64,000 nt of DNA, taken from contig NC_060252.1 of assembly GCF_921293095.1 (NCBI RefSeq), forward strand, positions 2,728,001 to 2,792,000, in the 5' to 3' direction. Made by a program: the position numbers and the translations under genes. Position 1 is the first letter of the stretch; each line of letters begins with the position of its first letter. This stretch comes from Ischnura elegans (Eukaryota; Arthropoda; Insecta; Odonata; Coenagrionidae). The notes under the pieces were generated by a model, which ran no database searches, had not been told where the DNA came from, and was given only the letters and a program-made list of their open reading frames with translations. This document shows, in pieces, positions 5,393 to 61,802 of the stretch.

Positions 5393-5523
5393 TTTAATTT
5401 TCTTCAGTTTTCACTGAGTTGTTTTAGTGTAAAGAGCACGGGTTTTCACCAAGGTAACTCTGAACTGTTGAATTGCGTTGAGAAATTTTCTCGTGATATA
5501 ATCATCATCACTGGTCAACAATC

Positions 5524-6189
5524 CTAGGATTGGTTTGACACAGCTCTCCACTCAGTTCTCCTATCAGCTAATCTTTTCACTCCTACGTATTTCTTCTCTT
5601 TCACATCTCTCTTTACTTGTTCCATATATTTTGTTCGGGGTCTTCCTTTTCCATTCTTGCCTTCCACCTGTCCTTCGACGATTGTCTTCATCAGGCCATC
5701 ATGTCTCAAGATGTGGCCTATAAGGTTGTTCCGTCTTCTTATTAAGGTTTTCATGAGGCTTCTCTTCTCTCCTACCCTTCTTAGGACTTCCTCGTTACTA
5801 ACTCGGTCGATCCATTTGATTTTCATCATTCTTCTGTAGCACCACATTTCAAAGGCCTCTATCCTTGCTTTCTCCGCTGCGGTCATTGTCCATGCCTCAC
5901 TTCCGTATAGGAGCATACTCCAGATGTAGGTTCTTATAAATTGTTTCTTTACTTCTATATTTAAGTTTCCCGCTGTAAGCAGGTCTCTCTTTTGGTGGAA
6001 TGCTCTCTTCGCCTGGGCTATTCTGCTGATAATTTCTTTCTTGCTTCTCCCGTCAGTAGTTATCTTGCTTCCCAAATAACAGAATTCATCCACCTCTATC
6101 AGTTTCTGCCTCCCTATTTTAATGTTGGTCTTGACTTCTTCTCTTCTGCTGCATACTAAGATCTTGGTTTTCTTCGTGCTTATTTTCAA
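5524..6189 (-). pseudogene. 5'-truncated RTE-like LINE, RT C-terminal part
   Basis: An uninterrupted 221-codon frame encodes the end of a non-LTR retrotransposon polyprotein. It begins just downstream of where the catalytic YxDD box would be. It has the YLGSKIT thumb-region motif (residue ~38), then LLYGSEAWT (~94), a MWCYRRMMKIKW block (~114) and a terminal IGHILRH...GKGRPRTKYM block (~157-188). These are typical of RTE-like endonuclease/RT proteins of arthropods. The EN domain and RT core are missing, so the copy is dead although this stretch has no stop. A 42-bp inverted duplication lies at its truncated 5' end (6147-6244). A related, more decayed copy lies at 61803-62400. Confidence 0.85.
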
Positions 6190-11758: not shown

Positions 11759-12445
11759 TTATTTAAAATTAATCACGTTTGCATTAAGAAACAAAATCTG
11801 GGAAACTTTCTTCCCAGAAAGTTTATTTCGTCTCTCAGTAATAATTTGTCCAGCTTTAGAAAATATTCTTTCGCTAGGAACTGAGCTACCAACGACACCA
11901 AGCACCTTTTTTGCCATATTACATAATTCGGGGTACTCTGATTTATGTTCACTCCACCATTTCAAAGAGTTAGCAGTCCTATTCAGAAGAGGCTCACTAA
12001 GGTAATTGTTCACTTCCACAATGCTGCTTGCTCGAGAATTTGGCTTTTGCACTACTCCTGCCACACATTCGTCAAAATCTTTCCAAATATCAGATGTTCC
12101 CACAATAATTCCTTTATTAGCAGCTGCTTGCGGGCTAGTGGTGGTCAGAACCTCCTTCTCTTTCATTTGACTTGCAACCTCAGTTATTACTCTCTCCTTG
12201 CACTTTTCAAAATCGTTTGTTTTGGTGAATCCGTAATGTTTAAATCTAGGATCCAAGAATGTCGCCTCGGCTAATAGTGGATTTTCTTCCACAGACTTGA
12301 ATCTTTTATCCAGTCCCTCTGCTAATCTTTTCGCAGGTGACGTGACTCTTCTGGATATGCCTTCTTTCTTTGTCCACTCACTACACCAGTTCATTAAATA
12401 ATGGTTGAGAAGAATAACTTTAGAAATTTGTAACCTGCTTTTCAC
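11759..12445 (-). pseudogene. hAT transposase, C-terminal part with hATC dimerisation domain
   Basis: The 228-codon frame contains AEATFLDPRFKHYGF (residue ~59), the conserved ...NSLKWWSEHKSEYPEL block (~159) and the hATC signature SSVPSERIFSKAGQI (~187) followed by RRNKLSGKKVSQILFLNAN. These are the insertion/C-terminal catalytic and dimerisation parts of BED-type hAT transposases. It continues the frame that ends at 12514, after one or two frameshifts at about 12440-12570. The start methionine is only the first ATG after the break and not a true initiation site. Confidence 0.9.
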
Positions 12446-12513
12446 AGCTCATTTCCTCTGTAACCTCTTTGAAAGGTTTTAAAATTTGACAACAATGGGA
12501 AATTAAAGTCATT

Positions 12514-13475
12514 TCACTGCCTGAGATGTTTACAACATCCGGATACTCTATAGCAATCAGAGACATTACCGACTTTTATTTTCAGCATCCTCTCTAGCAT
12601 GTCGTAGGTGGAATTCCATCTTGTTTTCACGCTTTGTTTCACTTTTAAAGTAGGCTGCTGCATCTGCATTTGCATTTTCTTCAATTTTTCTGCAGCTTGG
12701 GGGCTTCTTTTGAATAATTCCACTGTGGACTTCACCTTGCTAAGTAAATCTTGAATTTCTTCAAGCCCCTGCTGAACAATTAGATTAATGTTGTGGGCAA
12801 AGCAGGGATAGTTTCTCCATCCAGCTAATTTAATGGCAGCAACAATATTTGCAGCATTGTCACTGATTACCGCAACAATATTTTTTTCTATATCCCATTC
12901 ATGGACAACTCTTTTCAACTCTTCTGCCAGATTTTCATCCGTATGCCTCTCAGAAAAAGGGAAACACTCTAGTAAATTACTTTTCAGTTCAAATTCTTCA
13001 TCAATAAAGTGCACAGTCACGGAGAAGAAATTTTGGTTTGCCTCGGAAGTCCAACCATCTGTGGTGATACTAAAGTACCGTCCATTCCTTAACTGTTTTT
13101 TAACTCTTTCCTTCGTCATATTAAATAGATGGGGGATTAGATCATTAGAAATTTTCTTCCTTCTTGGTAAGCAATAGGAGCTGTTCAATTTTTTCACAAA
13201 GTTTTTAAAATAAACACTCTCCACTAATTGGAAAGGCAGATAGTTTTTCACCAATGTTTCCACTGGGGTAAAATTTAAGTCCTGATTTTTTTGGGGGGTC
13301 AACGGTTTCTTAACAAACTCCGACAATGTTGTTAGTACACTTGGGCGGTGCTCAGCATGCCCGTACTCTGGATCACTCATCTCACCAACCATGTTTCTTT
13401 CTTCTAAATTTTGGAGACGGTTGCCCTCTGTTGACGTTGACGTACTTGCTCCATCTTGATGCACCACATTGGAAT
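12514..13475 (-). pseudogene. hAT transposase, central part (RNase H-like core)
   Basis: This exon opens after an AG acceptor at 13476-13477 and reads through an acidic linker into FKNFVKKLNSSYCLPRRKKIS. A YFSITTDGWTSEANQNF block (first catalytic Asp region) follows, then ISDNAANIVAAIKLAG with HNINL, and RWNSTYDMLERM. These are classic hAT/ZBED catalytic-domain motifs. The last ~20 residues are out of frame, because the expected sequence continues in another frame from about 12570. The 137-bp intron at 13476-13612 joins it in phase to the BED exon. Confidence 0.9.
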
Positions 13476-13612
13476 CTGCATTGAATATTCATTTGGAATT
13501 GATTAGCATCAGAGGTAGTAAAATTCTACTTTTTATAAGTTGCTATCAATTATGCTAACTATCCTTGTAATAAAAAACAATTATGTTATTAACGTCCGTA
13601 TTAAATACTTAC

Positions 13613-48184: not shown

Positions 48185-48258
48185 AAGATAGAAAGAAATT
48201 TGTTTCCAACGCTTACGAAATTTTAACAACAGCTGTCCTCCTCAAAACCCAAGATATA

Positions 48259-48403
48259 GTTGGATTTTGCGCAGAAAGAATGCAGCTTATTCTTTTCGGT
48301 AGCTCAGCCTTTTATTTCTCTTTACTTTAGAAAGGCACGTAAACTAGAACAACAATGGTGACAACAAACTGTTTACAAACATCAGCTGTTACTATATCTC
48401 CAA
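48259..48403 (-). repeat. Copia 3' LTR
   Basis: 145 bp, matching 52391-52535 at every position I compared. The terminal inverted bases are TTGGA...TCCAA. Confidence 0.93.
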
Positions 48404-48420: not shown

Positions 48421-49210
48421 TTATGTCGTCAGGCCCATTCCATTCCTTAATTCTTCAAATTTTATTTTTGGAAGTGGCTTCGTCAGTGCATCAGCAATCA
48501 TGTCCTCACTCCTGCAGTAAACAAGCTGAATAACATTATTTTTCATTAAATCTCTTATAAAATGGTGCCGGACATCGATGTGCTTCGTTCTGGCACTAAA
48601 TTTTTCAATTGAAGCTATTTTTATGCATCCCTGGTTGTCTTCATAGATTATTATTGGTTCATTCTGCACCTCCCCCAGATCATGCAGTAATTGTCGTAGC
48701 CAAACACCTTCCTGACTGGCAGATGCTGCAGAAACATACTCAGCCTCTGTTGTAGACAGAGCGACAGAAGACTGCTTCCTGCTGGACCAGGAAATTCCAC
48801 TGTTTCCCAACTTAAAAATATATGCACTTGTAGATTTCCTATCTTGTATATCTCCACCCCAGTCGGCTTCTACATATCCAGTCAATTTAAGATCTTCACA
48901 GGCATAAATATTCAATGCCATATCACTGGTTTGCTTGAGATACCGCATTAGTTTCTTTAAAGCTTCCCAATCTCGCTGTCTGGGATTACTAACCGGTCTG
49001 CAGAGAATACTCATTGCTCCAGAAATATCTGGTCTAGTAGTTGTTGAAATATACAGAAGTGCCCCCACTGCTTCCCTATATTTGCCATTATTTGGCAAGG
49101 CATCATTCTCTCCTTTCAATTTGGGGTATTCAGGATCCATCGGTATAGATACACCTTTTGCATCTTCCATCCCGAACTTTTTCAATATTCCATCTACATA
49201 TTTTGGATTT
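48421..49210 (-). pseudogene. Copia Pol C-terminal part: RT end and RNase H
   Basis: The frame reads KKFGMEDAKGVSIPMD, YREAVGALLYISTTTRPDIS, DWEALKKLMRYLKQTSDMAL and then the RNase H motif LTGYVEADWGGDIQDRKSTS with YVSAASASQEGVWLRQLL. It ends ...DALTKPLPKIKFEELRNGMG. These are the standard C-terminal copia blocks. The frame is one base out from the main pol frame. The break is near 49200-49215. Confidence 0.93.
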
Positions 49211-51310
49211 CTGATTTAACTGAAAACTTCCATCCTCTTTTCTCTGGATTTGTATTCCTAAATAGTTAGTTGCATCTCCCAAGTCTTTTACTTCAAAGTG
49301 ATGATTCAACATTTGTCTTAGTTCCTTAATTTTATCTTCATTATCATGAATTATAATCAGGTCATCTACATAAATCAGAATATACATCCTTTTCTCATTT
49401 TCATTCTTCGTATAAAGACATGGATCTGCTAGGCTGCGCTGAAATCCTTTTTCAAGCAAAACATCATTTATTTTGACATTCCAAGCTCTTGCTGACTGCT
49501 TCAGTCCATATATTGATTTTTGAAGCTTGCAAACTAGCTTATCTTCAGTGGTTTTTGTGTAGCCCGGTGGTTGTTTCATGTATAATTCTTCTTCGATGTC
49601 GCCATTAAGAAATGCTGTTTTCACATCAAAATGTCGGACAAACAGCCTTCGTACTGCTGCTACGCTCATAAGGACTCTAAAGGTGCTTTGTCTTACAACT
49701 GGTGCAAAGGTTGAATCGTAGTCTTCTCCATATTTTTGAGAGTAACCTTTTGCAACAAGTCTTCCTTTTCGTCGACAAATATCTCCATTTGAATCATATT
49801 TTGTTTTGAACACCCATTTGCATCCAATGGCATGTTTTCCTTCAGGCAATTTAGTTAAAATCCATGTTTTATTTTCTTCGAGAGATTTTATTTCTTCACC
49901 AGCGGCTTTCATCCACTCCTCTCTTTCATTTGCAGGCAATTCCATTACCTCTTCTAAAGACTCTGGATCGGGCTTTGGGTTAATTTTAACAGTGTATGAT
50001 AACCATTTTGGTGGCACCCCCTTGCATTCTCTTGATGATTTTCGAACTGGCTGATCTGTTCTGTCCATTTCCAGTTTGGTGTTATCATCTATCTTGGTGA
50101 TTGGTATTTCTCTTTCTCTCATCAACCTATCATCCTGGTATGTATAACGCTCAGATGATTCTAGGTCGATATCCTTGATTAATTCCTCTTTATCTGTAAC
50201 ATTTTCATCAAATACTACAGTTCTGCTGATGATAATTCTATTCGTACTGGGTTGTAGGATCCTGTAACCTTTGGACGTTTCATTATATCCTACCATAATT
50301 CCTTTTTGAGCACGTGAATCCCACTTGCTCCGTTTTTCTTTGGGAAGATAAGCATAAGCTTTGCTTCCAAATACTCGTATATGCTGAAGATCAGGTTTTT
50401 CAGCAGTCCACAGCTCATATGGGGTTTTATCAATGGCTTTACTGGGCAAGCGATTTTGCAAATAGCATGCAGTCATGATAGCTTCTCCCCAATACTGTTT
50501 TGGCAAATTCGCATCTAGCAGCATGCATCGAGCTGATTCAACTAGAGAACGATTCTTTCTTTCTGCTATTCCATTCTGCTCAGGGCTGTATGGCACTGTG
50601 GTCTGAAACTCAATTCCTTCTTTCTTTAAAATATCCTGAGTTTTCTTTCCTATATATTCACCACCATTGTCCGTTCGCAGAATTTTTGGTTTTCTTCCGA
50701 ATTTAGTAGAAACTGCTGCAACATATTCTTCCAATTTGATTGACACTTCTTCCTTTAAGCGTAGCAGATATACAGTTGTGTAATGAGAGTAATCATCAAT
50801 AAATGTGAGAAAATAACGTTTCTTCCCTGGAGTTTCTGTACTCATTGGACCACAAATATCTGAGTGAATGAGTTCTAGGGGTCTTTGAGCTTTATAACTG
50901 CTTGTTTTGGGAAATGATTTCTTCGATAATTTTCCTTTTACACAGTCCCAACACCTCAAGAATTTATTGCAGTTATCAATTTCTATTCCTATAGCAAGTT
51001 TATCATCAATTAATCTTTTCACTGCAACTGGGTCTCTATGTCCAAGCCGCCTATGCCATAGATGAATACAATTCCGTTGATTCCCTAACTTTGCAGAATT
51101 AGCTATTTCTTGACATGATAATTTATAAAGATCACCATCAATCTTTCCCACAGCTTGCATTGTGCTTTTCTTATCAATTATGCAGTCATTCTCCTTGAAA
51201 GTCACCACATAACCTTCTTTAGCTAATTTCTTTACCGAGAGTAGGCTTCCTCGCAAATCAGGTACATACAGAACATCCTTCAATCTGTTTATTTGTCGGA
51301 GATATCTTGC
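49195..51310 (-). CDS. Copia Pol: integrase and reverse transcriptase
   Basis: In order: the GAG-pre-integrase zinc region LWHRRLGHRDPVAVKRL with CWDCVKGK; integrase catalytic residues in HSDICGPM, LRTDNGGEY and PEQNGIAERKNRSL (D,D,E); a RVFGSKAYAYLPKEKRSKWD C-terminal block; and a variable linker. The RT has KWVFKTKYDSNG, HFDVKTAFLNGDIEEELYM, SIYGLKQSARAWN and the catalytic YVDDLII. The main open frame runs 49130-51364, but the family-like sequence spans about 51300 to 49210 between the two frameshifts. All catalytic motifs I checked are present. Confidence 0.94.
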
Positions 51311-52034
51311 AATTGAGGTATCCTTCACCTGTCCCTTCAATAGCAATGAATTCCCCATTGGCAACGATTACCTTTCCTTCTTTATTTCGACGAATTCTTG
51401 CAAAGAAGTCAATATCATTTGTCATGTGGCTCGTAGCGCCCGAATCTACGTACCATGAACAAAACGCAGTAGCATACGATGCGTTCAGGCTGGCATCTGT
51501 AGCACCTCGCGCCTCGTAACTGTCTTTTTCCTTTTTGAACTCTTTCATTTTTGCTTTCCATATTCTGCAATCCTTCTTTAAATGTCCCCGTTTCTTGCAA
51601 ACGAAACACTCGCGAGTCTCTTTATAATTACTTCTTTCCGATCTGGATTCATGTGGTTTTCGTGTTTTCAAAGCTGACTCCGATTGCAGGTTGCGTGTTT
51701 CATCGCATATTATGGACTCATTCTTACGTGTGAATTCATCAATCAGTTTTCCTTTTACGTATTCTATTGTGAGTTCGTCATCTGGACGCGTATCAAGGGC
51801 TGTTACAAGGGTGCTATATTCATCTGTCAAACCACTAAGCAAGAGAGCAGCTATATTAAAATCTTTAATTTCTTCTCCGATGCTCCGCAAACGTTCGATT
51901 CGTTCTAATGTTGACTTTATATATTCTTGCATTGATTGACCCTTTTTAAGTTTCGATTGATAAAGTTTTCGAAGTAGATACAATTTATTGCTTAAATTGG
52001 CCCTTTCATGCACTTTTTGCAATTCTAACCACAT
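51258..52034 (-). pseudogene. Copia Gag (C-part), zinc knuckle and protease
   Basis: After the upstream in-frame stop the frame gives MWLELQKVHERANLSNKLYL, the Gag helices RLRSIGEEIKDFNIAALLLS, the knuckle CFVCKKRGHLKKDC (C-X2-C-X4-H-X4-C, about residue 143) and the protease active site WYVDSGATSHM (about residue 194). The protease is then frameshifted near 51300 into the pol frame. It is in the same frame as 52080-52283. Confidence 0.92.
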
Positions 52035-52079
52035 TTCTCTGGCACTTTTACACTTGCAAATGTGTATTATCTGACCATC

Positions 52080-52375: not shown

Positions 52376-52390
52376 CTGGGTCCATAACCA
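52376..52390 (-). promoter_or_regulatory. Copia primer-binding site
   Basis: The minus strand reads TGGTTATGGACCCAG directly after the 5' LTR. Copia-like elements use an internal part of initiator Met-tRNA with a site of this type; the pairing itself is inferred. Confidence 0.65.
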
Positions 52391-52535
52391 GTTGGATTTT
52401 GCGCAGAAAGAATGCAGCTTATTCTTTTCGGTAGCTCAGCCTTTTATTTCTCTTTACTTTAGAAAGGCACGTAAACTAGAACAACAATGGTGACAACAAA
52501 CTGTTTACAAACATCAGCTGTTACTATATCTCCAA
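52391..52535 (-). repeat. Copia 5' LTR
   Basis: 145 bp, apparently identical to 48259-48403. It is expected to carry the element's promoter. No TATA-like element was singled out. Confidence 0.93.
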
Positions 52536-55974: not shown

Positions 55975-56251
55975 TAATTAATATTTGATTTTGATAGAAA
56001 TCAAGAAATGATACATTTTCCACATAAATTTTATCGATGTATATTCTTGTATTAATTTCCTTCAATCGAACTGAAGACAAAAGCAGGATAGATTTCGAAA
56101 CTGTCGTCACTCGCAACAGACAAATGCAACTGGAGTAACCAGAAAAATGCACCCATTGTTGGCCTGACGCCAATAAAGCTTAATGCATATTATTCATTAC
56201 CATTGGTAAATGAAGAGCAAACTTAGTGCATGTCCACAGTAATTTTATTTG

Positions 56252-56294
56252 GTACGACGCGTTTCAGCGACCTTACTTCGCTATCATCAGGTAC
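56252..56294 (-). ncRNA. Hammerhead-ribozyme-like motif, left Penelope end
   Basis: The minus strand reads GTAC, CTGATGA, a 5-bp stem AGCGA/TCGCT closed by AGTAAGG, then GAAA, CGCG, TC and GTAC. This is the order of a type I hammerhead (stem I GTAC/GTAC, conserved CUGAUGA and GAAA boxes, very short stem III, cleavage after the UC). One unpaired T sits between CTGATGA and stem II, so activity is uncertain. Minimal hammerheads with short stem III are established in Penelope-like elements. Confidence 0.7.
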
Positions 56295-56311
56295 AAAATG
56301 CCATATTTTCG

Positions 56312-57465
56312 TCAAGAAGTCATATATATATATACAATCATGCAAATGGGAGGGGTATATTTATGAGTCGGCGGAAGTGGGAGAGGGTTTGGGGGGGTAA
56401 AGGATGGGGGAAGGGGGTGGGGAGGTGGTTGGGATACGTAAGGATTTGGAGTTCGGTTGAAGGTTTTGAGAGGGGGGAGGGCTAACAACGGGGAATGACT
56501 CAGGAACTCAATGTCATTCAAAAGATTTTCCTTGCGTTTTCTCCTACTGGTAATTTCCCATTGCTCGAGTGCGTCGAGCCGACGTCCTTTTCCTTCGAAG
56601 GCCAGTATTTTAGGCTGGAAACTGCATGAATGGTTCTCGTTGATAAGGTGAGTGGCTAGCTGGGATTTGGTGTCTTTCTTATCAAAACATCTTTTGTGCT
56701 CTGCTGTCCTTACTTTGAAATTCCGACCAGTTTGTCCTACATATGTTGAATCACATGAGTCGCAGCTGATTGCATAAATGCCGGATCTTAAAAGAGGGTC
56801 CAATTTATCTAATGATTTGTCAAATAATTTTTTAAGCGTCACTAGGGAATAAAAACAGAATTTAAAACGGTCTCTCGGGAAGCACTTGGAAACTTTGTAT
56901 GACTCTTTACCTACGTATGGTAGCTTCACCCACTTCTTTGTGTTTGAGGTCTGCTTAAGGTCTGTGATTTCTTTAATGGCATTTTTCCTTCGTGAATTCT
57001 GCAATATCCTTTCAATTAGATACCCATCGTAGCCGTTAACAGTAGCAATGTGATGAATGTGGTTTAGTTCTTTGGCAAAGGACTCCCGTGAAAGTGGAAT
57101 ATTCATGAGTCTATTAATCATAGAGTGGAATGCTGCCATTTTGTGACTGAAGGCATGGCACGAATCAGATGGAATGACCATATCTGTAGATGTCGGCTTT
57201 CTAAAGATGTCAAATATATGTTTATCCCCGAATATAGATATTTGCAAATCTAAAAAACTTAAACTTCCATCTGTATCTTTCTCCATCGTGAAATTAATGT
57301 TTTTATGGCATGAGTTTAAAAGGTTTAAGAAATTATTGGCTTGCCGTAAGCTTCCGGTCCAACAACATAAAATATCATCGACATATCGAAACCAATAAAA
57401 TACGTTCTTTACAAGTGAGTCATTGGAGTTAAAAATCTTTCTTTCAAAATTGTCCATAAAAATTT
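56312..57465 (-). pseudogene. Penelope-like RT C-part and GIY-YIG endonuclease
   Basis: The 381-codon frame starts FMDNFERKIF. It has the RT catalytic box FRYVDDILCCW (residue ~24), TMEKDTDGSLSFLDLQI (~58) and a long linker with HHIATVNGYDGYLIERIL. The endonuclease follows with SGIYAISCDSCDSTYVGQTG (about 247-266) and RNFKVRTAEHKRC. GIY...YVG, the downstream Arg and the E/H residues are present. A Pro-rich tail follows. It is out of frame by one with the upstream RT half, and the break is in a G/C homopolymer near 57477-57490. Confidence 0.93.
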
Positions 57466-57468
57466 CGG

Positions 57469-58881
57469 CTAGTAATGGGGAAGGGGGGACCCCATTGATA
57501 AGCCTTCGTCTTGTTGATAAAATATACTATTAAAAAGAAAGTAATTTTGTTTAACACATACCTCCAAAAGAATGGCCAATTCTTGTATGGCAACTGGGTT
57601 TGCTTGTGAATTGTTGAGGATATTTTTGGCCATTTCTAAGGCTTCTTTCACGGGTATGGAAGTGAAAAGGTTCTTAACGTCAAAGGAAATTAGTTTGGCG
57701 TTCCGGGGTAACTTGATGGGTTTAAGTTTTTCGGCAAGTACTGTAGAGTTTTTTATACTGAATTTAGGGGTAAACTTAGTGAGCTGACGGAATAGGTGAT
57801 TAATTCTATGCAAAAGTTTATGTGTTGGAGATCCAACACCGGAAACCACTGGTCGTATGGGAATATTTGATTTACGGATTTTTGGGAGTCCATATAACCT
57901 AGGAGGAAGGGGATTCATTTGTAACAAGTGATGTTTGTAACACTGTGTGAGTACACCAGGGCACGCGTTGATTGCTTCTTTCACTTCCTTTTGTAGCACT
58001 TTGGTGGGGTCACTGCGAGGAACTGAGAATGAATTCTCACGGATGAAGGAGAGGCACTTGTCCACGTTATCTTTCCTATTGAGGATCACAGTACTATTGC
58101 CTTTATCTGATTTGATCACTACTAGGTCTTCACTGTTAATTGTCCGGCAAATAGACTTAATTACATTATTGTTATTTCGTTTATCTGATTTACATCGAGA
58201 TTTGTTGTTGAAGGAGTCAATGAGATTATTAGCACATAATTGTTTGGTGCCCAATGGCTCTCTACAAAGGGCCACTTCACAATGTATCGAGAGCTGTTTA
58301 AAAGAATCAAAAGTTTTTGGGGTGAGGGAAAACTTCAGACCTTTGTCTAGTACTCCTTGTTCCTGTGGTGAGAACTTGTGCGAAGAAAGGTTGATGGTTC
58401 TGGGATGAAACTGGAGGGTGGTTCCCCTTGGCAAGACCGGTGCCACGAACGGGATGGATGGCTTTCGGTCCTGGATGAGGCGGCTCAGCTTGCTGTTGAT
58501 GGTGTCCTTCTTCTTCTGGGTGATGATGCTGGAACGTTGTCTTACGTTGTCATCAAGCGTAGAAAATTGCACTGGATGTAGACTGGTGGCCAATTCTGAG
58601 TGTAGGACGTACAGGTAATGAGATCAAGCGTCTCTTCTCCCGTACCAGATCTTCATCTCCTGCTGGACCCACACTTTCCTGGCCACTTGCACTGCTTGCT
58701 TAGCCGCTGGTGACTCCAAGCGGCATCTGATGTTGACATATCTGGGCGTAACTCCAAAGGATAAGCATTGGGCATTGAAAAAAATATTCAATCCCGCTAT
58801 TTGAAACTTGACGAACAACTTGGAAAATAACTTCGCCTGGTGTGCCGTACTGGCGTTACAGATGTATTCAACGGTGTTCAA
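57469..58881 (-). pseudogene. Penelope-like polyprotein N-part and RT first half
   Basis: The frame from 58881 encodes a short N-terminal region, is cut by TGA at 58624-58626 and continues in the same frame. In order: SDKGNSTVILNRKDNVDKCL, RLYGLPKIRKSNIPIRPVVS and the catalytic SFDVKNLFTSIPV, ending DEGLSMGSPL. KGxxxVI, GLPKIHK-like and FDV-LFTSIP motifs are standard for Penelope-like RTs, which are related to telomerase. Together with 56312-57465 this is one polyprotein with two visible lesions. Confidence 0.92.
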
Positions 58882-58883
58882 AT

Positions 58884-59417
58884 TCTATTTTTATTCCCTA
58901 GTGACGCTTAAAAAATTATTTGACAAATCATTAGATAAATTGGACCCTCTTTTAAGATCCGGCATTTATGCAATCAGCTGCGACTCATGTGATTCAACAT
59001 ATGTAGGACAAACTGGTCGGAATTTCAAAGTAAGGACAGCAGAGCACAAAAGATGTTTTGATAAGAAAGACACCAAATCCCAGCTAGCCACTCACCTTAT
59101 CAACGAGAACCATTCATGCAGTTTCCAGCCTAAAATACTGGCCTTCGAAGGAAAAGGACGTCGGCTCGACGCACTCGAGCAATGGGAAATTACCAGGAGG
59201 AGAAAACGCAAGGAAAATCTTTTGAATGACATTGAGTTCCTGAGTCATTCCCCGTTGTTAGCCCTCCCCCCTCTCAAAACCTTCAACCGAACTCCAAATC
59301 CTTACGTATCCCAACCACCTCCCCACCCCCTTCCCCCATCCTTTACCCCCCCAAACCCTCTCCCACTTCCGCCGACTCATAAATATACCCCTCCCATTTG
59401 CATGATTGTATATATAT
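58884..59417 (+). pseudogene. Truncated inverted Penelope copy: GIY-YIG part
   Basis: It begins inside the linker (FYFYSLVTLKKLFDKSLDKL) and carries the whole GIY-YIG domain and Pro-rich tail. It is nearly identical to the minus copy at 56330-56860; one visible change is RRRKR for SRRKR. It continues after the hAT insertion at 61619. The preceding in-frame residues from 58808 are antisense of the other copy's start and not part of the protein. Confidence 0.9.
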
Positions 59418-61610
59418 TAGTGATGGGTCGATTCCAAAATTTTATCGATTCCGATCCCGATTCCGATTCTGACATTTCGATTCCGGTTCTACCGATACCG
59501 ATTCCATCGATTCTGATGCCATAGGCTCCAAGAAAAATATCACTTAATTCCAGGCAACAAGAAAACCACTTCTAAAAATATTACTCTGTGAAAGAGTCAG
59601 TTGACAAAAGCATCTTTCAAATAATCACTATGTAATTAAAATTTAATAGCTTAATTTCAAAACAGAACATACCTGAGTACAGAAATTTTCATAGCTGTAA
59701 TAAAGATTACATACTACGTATATGAATCATGTAATATTTGGCCCTTTCAAATTCTCAAGCAGAAAAACCAATTATTCTACATGCTCAGCCAGCAGGTTTT
59801 GACGTCTCCATGTTACAGTATTACTGCCTGCCTGAAAATTGCCTTTTGCTACACATGTGTGTTATTGGGCAAGTACTTTCCCACCAAAATTGCAAGATTT
59901 CGGAGACTTTGGAATTTTTATTAAAAATTATATCAACGATTTTTTGGATCTTGAATCTTCATGGAATTCAAGTGGTCGAAGCGAACAACTATAGAACTAA
60001 ACTTTAGTTTTGTAGAGCCAAAAAAAATGCTATACTTCTCACGTCATTTAATCAACCTTAAAATCTCTTGCTTTTTTTAAGTTCAATAAAGAAACTAAAC
60101 GCTACAAATGAATATCACATCGGACGGTCGCAGTAATAAAAAAGGCTAAAAGAGCCTTGTGGTGTGAAAACTCCCCCTACCGCGCGACTCACCTCGGCGA
60201 AGGTGGAAAAGGAAAAAGGGTATCGGTTGTTGCCTTTCACGGAAATAGTTCTTTTTTCTCTCTCTTAAGCATGCTGACTTAATCTCTTCACTTTACTTCA
60301 ATACCCGAGGCATATTTCTTATGCGTGGGATGGTTCCAAAAAATACCCAATCCTTAGTATTTTCACTCGAGTAATGCGCTAAATGGTCAAGTCGATCTAT
60401 ATATAATCCTTTTTAACATCCTCAGTTTAGTGTTTTAAGTCTATAAAGACGATTATCTATGCTTTAAATGACGATTTTCAAGACTAATGTTTTAAAAAAC
60501 TTGAAAAATCGGCCTCAGTTACCGAGCCTTAAAGTTCCGCAACGTGTAGCTCAGCCTTGACGCGCGATTGAAAAATCGCTCTTATTTCCTTCGTCGCAAA
60601 CTTTTTTTTCAAGATTTCTTATTAGTACTCTTTATAAATCTCTACTTTATATTGTGGTACAAATTTTCCGAGTTATATTTTTCGTAAACGAAAGATAATG
60701 TCTACTTTATGTCAAATTTCACGTGAAAAACGGGTCGGCCATTTTGCGTTGTAAAACCCGACAGATGAGAGCCAAAATCTTCGAAAGTCATTGAAAGTAT
60801 AGGCAAAGCACCAGATCAAAGGAATATTGCGTTTTATATTCCATAAAACTCACACCAACGCAAAACCACTTGGATAAATTCAAAGATTTTTTTAGGAAAA
60901 ACGATATCTCGCGTGGCATTGAAAAATTGGTCATGCTTGGGCCTCTGTATCTCACTAAAGGTTCGTATTTATATGAAATGGCATATAAAGCAATATTTGG
61001 TAATGATGTATGAGTATTTATGCTGAGTTTCAAGTCTCTATCCCCAAAAAGGTCATTTTGGACTTTATTCCAGCTTTTTCCGATTTCAGACCAGTGTGCT
61101 CCGGGTAGGAAGACGATCGGCCGCCGCGGCTGGCGTAAAGGTATTCGGCGCCCACGTCGACAACTATAGTGTATTCGGCAAGCTGAAACTACCAGGCCAA
61201 GGCATTAGAATGACTTATCGGCTTTAAAAACTGCATTATTACATGAGTTTCATGATAGCGCTTCCTGTCGGCAGATTGCTGGACTTACTAGCCTCGAAAG
61301 CACTGTAACCTTAACTACTCGACTCGACATTCGTAATGCGACTCGAAACGCTCGAGTCGAGTACTAACTACTCGATCGACCTGAATTTTTGAGTACTCGC
61401 ACATCCCAAGAAGATATGTGTTTTGTTATTACGATTACGTGGCGCGAAAATTCAAATGACTGTTGGAAACGCGGTCGTTTATTTTGTTGTTTGAAGTACT
61501 ACTGGAATCGGAATCGATTTTTCGCCTTGGCAAGTACTCGTTTTCGATTCCGGTTCTTGGCCGAGAATCGAGGAATCGAAGAATCGAGGAATCGAACCGA
61601 CCCATCACTA
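59418..61610. mobile_element. Non-autonomous hAT-type element nested in Penelope copy
   Basis: The ends are TAGTGATGGGTCGATTC and, reversed, TAGTGATGGGTCGGTTC. ATATATAT lies on both sides (59410-59417 and 61611-61618), inside the Penelope TA run. GATTCCGA/GAATCG repeats fill both ends (59430-59515 and 61500-61600). No transposase is encoded in the 2193 bp. Near 61310-61410 ACTCGAGTCGAGTACT motifs and a GTACTCGCACATCCCA ending suggest a fragment of another hAT element inside it. Confidence 0.92.
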
Positions 61611-61649
61611 ATATATATATATGACTTCTTGACGAAAATATGGCATTTT

Positions 61650-61692
61650 GTACCTGATGATAGCGAAGTAAGGTCGCTGAAACGCGTCGTAC
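61650..61692 (+). ncRNA. Hammerhead-ribozyme-like motif, right Penelope end
   Basis: It is identical in sequence to the left motif, on the opposite strand: GTAC 61650-61653, CTGATGA 61654-61660, stem II 61662-61666 with 61674-61678, GAAA 61679-61682, CGCGTC then GTACC. The predicted cleavage lies after C61688. Confidence 0.7.
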
Positions 61693-61802
61693 CAAATAAA
61701 ATTACTGTGGACATGCACTAAGTTTGCTCTTCATTTACCATTGTATCATTATGTTCCACAACATCTCGCCGAACACCGTTGAATACATTCATTACCATTA
61801 GT

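Follow-up and report, generated by a model that had tools for sequence, protein, structure and literature searches.

Head-to-head insertions of a Penelope-like element in Ischnura elegans pair one tailed with one tail-less 3' end, consistent with double-ended target-primed reverse transcription

Inverted copies and short tails are known features of Penelope-like elements (PLEs). In Adineta vaga, the account of the Penelope element Pen2a_Av and related copies describes an open reading frame between pseudo-long terminal repeats (pseudo-LTRs), an adjacent inverted pseudo-LTR, and one 9–10 bp target duplication; a TATA box lies in the pseudo-LTR, and a 31-bp tail is optional on one inverted pseudo-LTR (PMC3846280). 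A curation guide also lists inverted pseudo-LTRs and short 3' extensions in PLEs (PMC8969392). In vitro, the Poseidon PLE PAc of Anolis carolinensis leads to cutting and extension of both DNA strands, with two adjacent reverse transcriptase (RT) start sites bounding the tail, a hammerhead near the start region, and uncut RNA as the template (PMC11167929). Penelope of Drosophila virilis, which belongs to the Penelope/Poseidon clade, has RT and GIY-YIG motifs and an optional 30–40 bp tail (PMC11167929), and we liken it to the Ischnura element by description. How PLE integration is completed is unsettled in the literature, with self-priming on an antisense template, target priming, and a novel pathway all under discussion. 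Here, we analyze a PLE locus in a stretch of 64,000 nucleotides (nt) of Ischnura elegans (assembly GCF_921293095.1, contig NC_060252.1, positions 2,728,001 to 2,792,000), hereafter called the window. The locus is a well-preserved example of the known kind, and the genome makes a clean test of integration.

Leaving aside the number of RNAs used, the locus very probably arose in a single insertion event by double-ended target-primed reverse transcription. What we observe is the anatomy of the locus, single target duplications around the pairs, exactly one tail per two-sided insertion, and a common source of the two arms.

The composite PLE insertion spans 56192–61799 and consists of a target duplication, a minus copy, a plus copy, a tail, and a second duplication. 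The initial annotation had seen the short piece behind the 3' end of the plus copy and had taken it for a short tandem remnant of the element's 5' start. The piece is present (61740–61788) and its last 18 bases match the 5' end of the minus copy (58862–58879), but it is the known PLE tail. It is 47–49 bases long and marks a second start of reverse transcription (S2) about 48 nt beyond the first (S1). The features are as follows.

56192–56204, no strand: left target-site duplication, ATTCATTACCATT
56205–58879, minus strand: PLE copy with a broken frame, from its tail-less 3' end at 56205 (site S1) to its 5' end at 58879
56256–56290, minus strand: hammerhead-like motif (CTGATGA...GAAACGCGTC) in the 3' terminal region of the minus copy, found by eye
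58877–58880, no strand: head-to-head junction, from the arm alignment
58880–59417, plus strand: first part of the 5'-truncated PLE copy, from the endonuclease region onward
59418–61610, no strand: hAT-like insertion, later than and outside the PLE event, within the TATA run of the plus copy
61611–61739, plus strand: remainder of the plus PLE copy, to CATTTACC (site S1)
61654–61688, plus strand: hammerhead-like motif of the plus copy, found by eye
61740–61788, plus strand: PLE tail, from S1 to S2 (GAATACA), its final 2 bases common with the duplication
61787–61799, no strand: right target-site duplication, ATTCATTACCATT

As had been claimed, the 13 bp of ATTCATTACCATT are exact at both outer borders; they occur nowhere else in the window. 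The two copies indeed meet head to head, and where the ends of the complementary DNAs (cDNAs) meet, the arms overlap by 2–3 bases (58877–58879). The minus copy had been called complete, but compared with the natural unit, for which locus L009 served as reference, it is missing 31 bases at the start, and its reading frame is broken into pieces. The plus copy is 5'-truncated as described, starting at 58880 and resuming at 61611 after the hAT-like insertion. This insertion has 17-bp inverted ends, sits in a TA run, splits the plus copy, and holds no stop-to-stop frame longer than 138 amino acids (aa). The same TATA run is also interrupted in the PLE copies L041/L107 and L045. When the plus pieces on both sides of the insertion were compared with the minus copy, the arms were identical in 662 of 666 columns. 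The right flank of the locus is the 3' end of a long interspersed nuclear element (type assigned by eye), with a 72% relative at 5496–6042.

The broken PLE frames of the window gave no RVT_1 match; the 863-aa open frame of the family copy L009 matched RVT_1 with 48.5 bits (cut-off 29.6). A candidate GIY-YIG endonuclease match lies at the expected C-terminal place, below its cut-off (19.0–20.9 vs 22.6 bits), and the motif GIY...YVGQTG can be read by eye in this region. In L009, a terminal repeat is followed without a break by 31 bases and an almost complete unit (pseudo-LTR, partial tandem); among the fetched loci, only L009 has this tandem arrangement. Further PLE traits are the tail of about 48 nt, optional at one 3' end, the duplication of variable length, and the AT-rich targets. 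In the 3' region, we recognized by eye a core motif resembling the hammerhead of PLEs. Neither a scan of the window nor a search with a 179-base stretch at E values up to 10 gave an Rfam hammerhead match, and the putative hammerhead fold is no better than shuffles (z = −0.33). A search of viral contigs returned no relative. We also considered a DNA transposon with long terminal inverted repeats; this does not fit the RT frame in L009, ends that differ by the tail, and freely varying arm lengths.

To place the locus among its relatives, we searched the 1.72-Gb host genome, from which all loci come. With the minus copy as query, 40 of 757 candidates were scored and yielded 61 matches in 39 loci, of which 38 besides the window are numbered L009–L046. 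A 40-base hammerhead pattern was found at 337 genome places (reversed control: 0). From the 100 places listed, all exact, we took 20 close inverted pairs (L047–L066) and the first 20 unpaired new places (L067–L086). Subfamily B, of the L016 type, matches L009 at 86% overall and at about 81% in the terminal repeat; its search (40 of 718 candidates scored) contributed 10 of 11 visible inverted pairs and the 10 best unpaired places (L087–L106). Thus, 99 loci were examined (39 + 20 + 20 + 20, window included). L009–L046 were aligned to the natural tandem in L009, and u is the coordinate along the unit, with S1 at u2705 and S2 at about u2753.

The same head-to-head layout was found at dozens of loci. 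It is two-sided, with a 3' end on both outer sides, in 62 of the 99 loci, 15 of them in subfamily B; per set, the numbers are 16/39, 20/20 (chosen as pairs), 12/20, and 14/20 (10 chosen as pairs), so that 30 of the 62 had been selected because both arms were visible. The proposal that both outer ends are the element's 3' end is supported. As the same arrangement turns up at dozens of differently flanked loci, 58883 is unlikely to be an assembly artefact. The remaining loci comprise 9 with an internal second arm, 27 with a single arm, and L012, which was left out of the counts as a duplicated stretch of L017. L012 (C17) duplicates this stretch of L017 (C13) including the flanks at about 99% identity, with a deletion.

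Target duplications around the pairs are 9–15 bp long in 15 long loci, whereas 210 pairings across loci gave no more than 8 bp, and chance is therefore ruled out as their origin. A perfect repeat of at least 9 bp was present in 52 of the 62 two-sided loci (43/47, 8/14 in subfamily B, and L041); the length was 12–14 bp in 41 of the 62, with 13 bp in L010. The duplications are AT-rich, with a GC fraction of 0.284 vs 0.347 in the flanks (39 sites), and that of the window has 0.385. Two separate insertions at one site could in principle produce an inverted pair, as PLEs prefer AT-rich sites and nested hits occur. However, a single duplication encloses the pair, no separate duplications for the plus and the minus copy were seen, and the layout is repeated at dozens of sites. 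Moreover, among the first 100 of the 337 pattern places, all 21 nearby inverted pairs were head-to-head and none was tail-to-tail by hand count (20 of them no more than 500 bp apart and one 1.6 kb apart), and source alleles agree between the arms. Hence, two independent hits are almost certainly not the origin of the pair. The original proposal of one integration event is supported, and most of the other copies that share the layout have their own single duplication.

The most regular feature of the two-sided loci is the tail. Exactly one tailed and one tail-less end was found in 62 of 62 loci. For this count, L041 was scored together with L107, the tail state of L105 was judged by eye (its second arm has only about 12 bases), and L038, L051, and L054 were scored tail-less with that end 8–19 bases short of S1. 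Of 47 loci, 22 carry the tail at the left end and 25 at the right end. By hand tally, 12 of the 27 single-arm loci were tailed and 14 were tail-less, with L098, which ends a few bases into the tail, counted among the latter and L032 unscorable. As single-arm copies use either site, an independent choice would predict about half same-type pairs; with equal choice of ends and loci treated as independent, the chance of 62 mixed pairs is 0.5 to the 62nd power, about 2e-19. We found no statement of a strict one-tail rule in searches of an open-licence library, a scope which older PLE reviews fall outside. The rule is an addition to the known inverted, tailed PLEs and to the extension of both strands in vitro. 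In the in vitro work on Anolis PAc, start-site use does not differ between the strands and the pairing of strands in one product is unstated (PMC11167929); the rule seen in Ischnura concerns this pairing.

Start positions also bear on L1-like twin priming, in which a second primer lands inside the RNA. Nine loci in which one arm or both are inverted internal pieces (L020, L023, L024, L028, L033, L036, L039, L045, and L106), which were not counted as two-sided, would fit such a process. In the window and the 61 other two-sided loci, by contrast, the start of the second arm coincides with the fixed terminal site S1 or S2 or is only a few bases away from it, apart from the three slightly shorter ends named above. 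We therefore consider twin priming very unlikely for the two-sided loci.

Judging from their variants, the arms of a locus probably share one source. In the long loci, subfamily-site comparisons between arms agree in 42 of 42 cases. Of the eight arm differences found there, seven involve private alleles; the eighth (u2048 C, next to the window junction) is shared only with the diverged L016. In the 46 loci besides L016, 88 of 91 comparisons of shared variants agree between arms; the mean over 2000 shuffles was 0.68, and none of them reached the observed value. The arms agree at the C/T site u2704 in 38 of 39 loci; the exception is L050, where the base lies inside the duplication overlap. In L014, L017, and L022, the arms are closest to each other, with 1/664, 0/747, and 0/560 differences, respectively. 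Those of L010 and L031 are identical and too short to be informative on the closest relative.

The inner ends, in contrast to the outer ones, vary freely. In 48 of the 62 two-sided loci, the 5' ends of the two arms lie more than 3 bases apart along the unit. Several tail arms stop near S1 (for example, L041 at u2706, L042 at u2698, and L038 at u2691). The junctions of 47 loci show overlaps of up to 13 bases or fillers of up to 60 bases. These features bear on self-priming or copy-back, in which a single cDNA (or antisense template) would fold back on itself, its copying giving an inverted repeat. The work on Adineta vaga puts this forward from palindromes at the head-to-head junctions (PMC3846280). 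Nearly identical arms are expected from such a process, and the L062 junction, a 13-base near-palindromic overlap, is what self-priming predicts. The other junctions among the 47, however, have overlaps of at most 10 bases or fillers. In addition, neither arm can be a plain copy of the other because only one arm has the tail, and the unequal 5' extents also do not fit. Copy-back is accordingly a highly improbable origin for these pairs.

Double-ended priming accounts for one duplication per pair, for outer ends that are fixed and inner ends that are free, and for the junction overlaps and fillers. The PLE endonuclease would make a staggered break in the target, and both target 3' ends would prime cDNA synthesis on element RNA. 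One cDNA would start at S1 and give the tail-less end; the other would start at S2, which lies about 48 nt closer to the 3' end of the RNA, and give the tailed end. Extended to different points, the two cDNAs would then be joined by end joining, leaving a head-to-head pair in one duplication. We infer the order of these steps and the single use of each start site; the latter would be simplest if the two arms use one RNA and the first cDNA hides S1.

Some of our data, besides the L062 junction, weigh against this reading, and all loci belong to a single genome. Ten of the 62 loci are without a perfect duplication of at least 9 bp (L051, L059, L077, L083, L092, L093, L094, L097, L103, and L105). 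Microhomology at the start sites, with apparent overlaps of 1.6 and 2.4 bases, is not above the shuffled control. Some arms have closer relatives than their sister arm; this holds for 8 loci in the case of the window arms, which differ from each other in 3/540 positions, for 20 in the case of L027, and for 13 in the case of L040. The agreement between arms could also partly reflect subfamilies active at different times and not one RNA. No strict order of the inner ends is seen: in 34 loci the tail arm is the first to stop, in 14 it is the second, and in 14 the two stops are within 3 bases of each other. Finally, there are 15 loci with both arms extending to the likely RNA 5' end, where a single RNA could serve both arms only if the second cDNA displaced the first.

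This RNA 5' end is suggested by the positions of the stops. Among 94 arms, 39 stop at u2600–2618, including both arms in 15 short composite loci (L063, with its 5' end at u2603, would add one to each count); in subfamily B, it is 4 of 34 arms. A TATA run lies at u2578–2588, and stops at u2606–2612 are 28–34 bases from its start. Stops about 30 bp from the TATA run look like cDNA run-off at the transcript start. Of the 94 arms, 6 stop around the hammerhead cut (u2645–2665). An uncut hammerhead in the template RNA agrees with the work on Anolis PAc (PMC11167929) and is only suggestive here because 20 pairs were chosen for having the hammerhead pattern in each arm, a choice that leaves out arms ending there. 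The second arm of L106 (1274–1327) covers only u2605–2658; it reaches from the likely RNA start to shortly beyond the hammerhead cut, as though a cleaved 5' piece of the RNA had been copied.

Within double-ended priming, the use of one RNA for both strands has, in our estimate, an even chance of being correct. Synthesis would begin at S1 and then at S2, since the first cDNA hides S1, and the template would be an uncut transcript whose start lies immediately upstream of the hammerhead. The excess of earlier tail-arm stops (34 of 48; two-sided binomial p = 0.0055), together with the stops near S1, leads us to lean tentatively towards S1 first and one RNA. A plausible but somewhat less probable variant has two RNAs on an asymmetric protein dimer whose subunits start at S1 and S2, respectively. 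A dimer has been predicted for the Anolis protein (PMC11167929), and two RNAs would easily account for the 15 loci in which both arms reach the likely RNA 5' end. Such a dimer would, however, need an extra rule against same-site starts, and the shared alleles would require both RNAs to come from one locus.

Other repeats lie elsewhere in the window. A Copia-like retrotransposon coding region (RVT_2, integrase, gag) at 48421–52079 is accompanied by identical 146-bp repeats at 48258–48403 and 52390–52535. Pieces of a hAT transposase are on the minus strand at 11759–13488, with Dimer_Tnp_hAT above the cut-off at 11759–12448 and DUF659 just below it at 12514–13488. An inverted repeat of about 112 bases at 6138–6253 matches itself at 89%, and several microRNA models match it below their cut-offs.

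Compared with Adineta vaga, where the account reports the same layout in a few copies and explains it by self-priming (PMC3846280), the Ischnura PLE combines one tail in every two-sided locus with arms that carry common source variants, and both of these disfavor copy-back. If the one-RNA reading is true, every two-sided insertion would have one tail, and events starting at S2 would give one-armed tailed copies. The one-tail rule also turns the in vitro result of two starts and two extended strands into a specific prediction on the products of single integrations.

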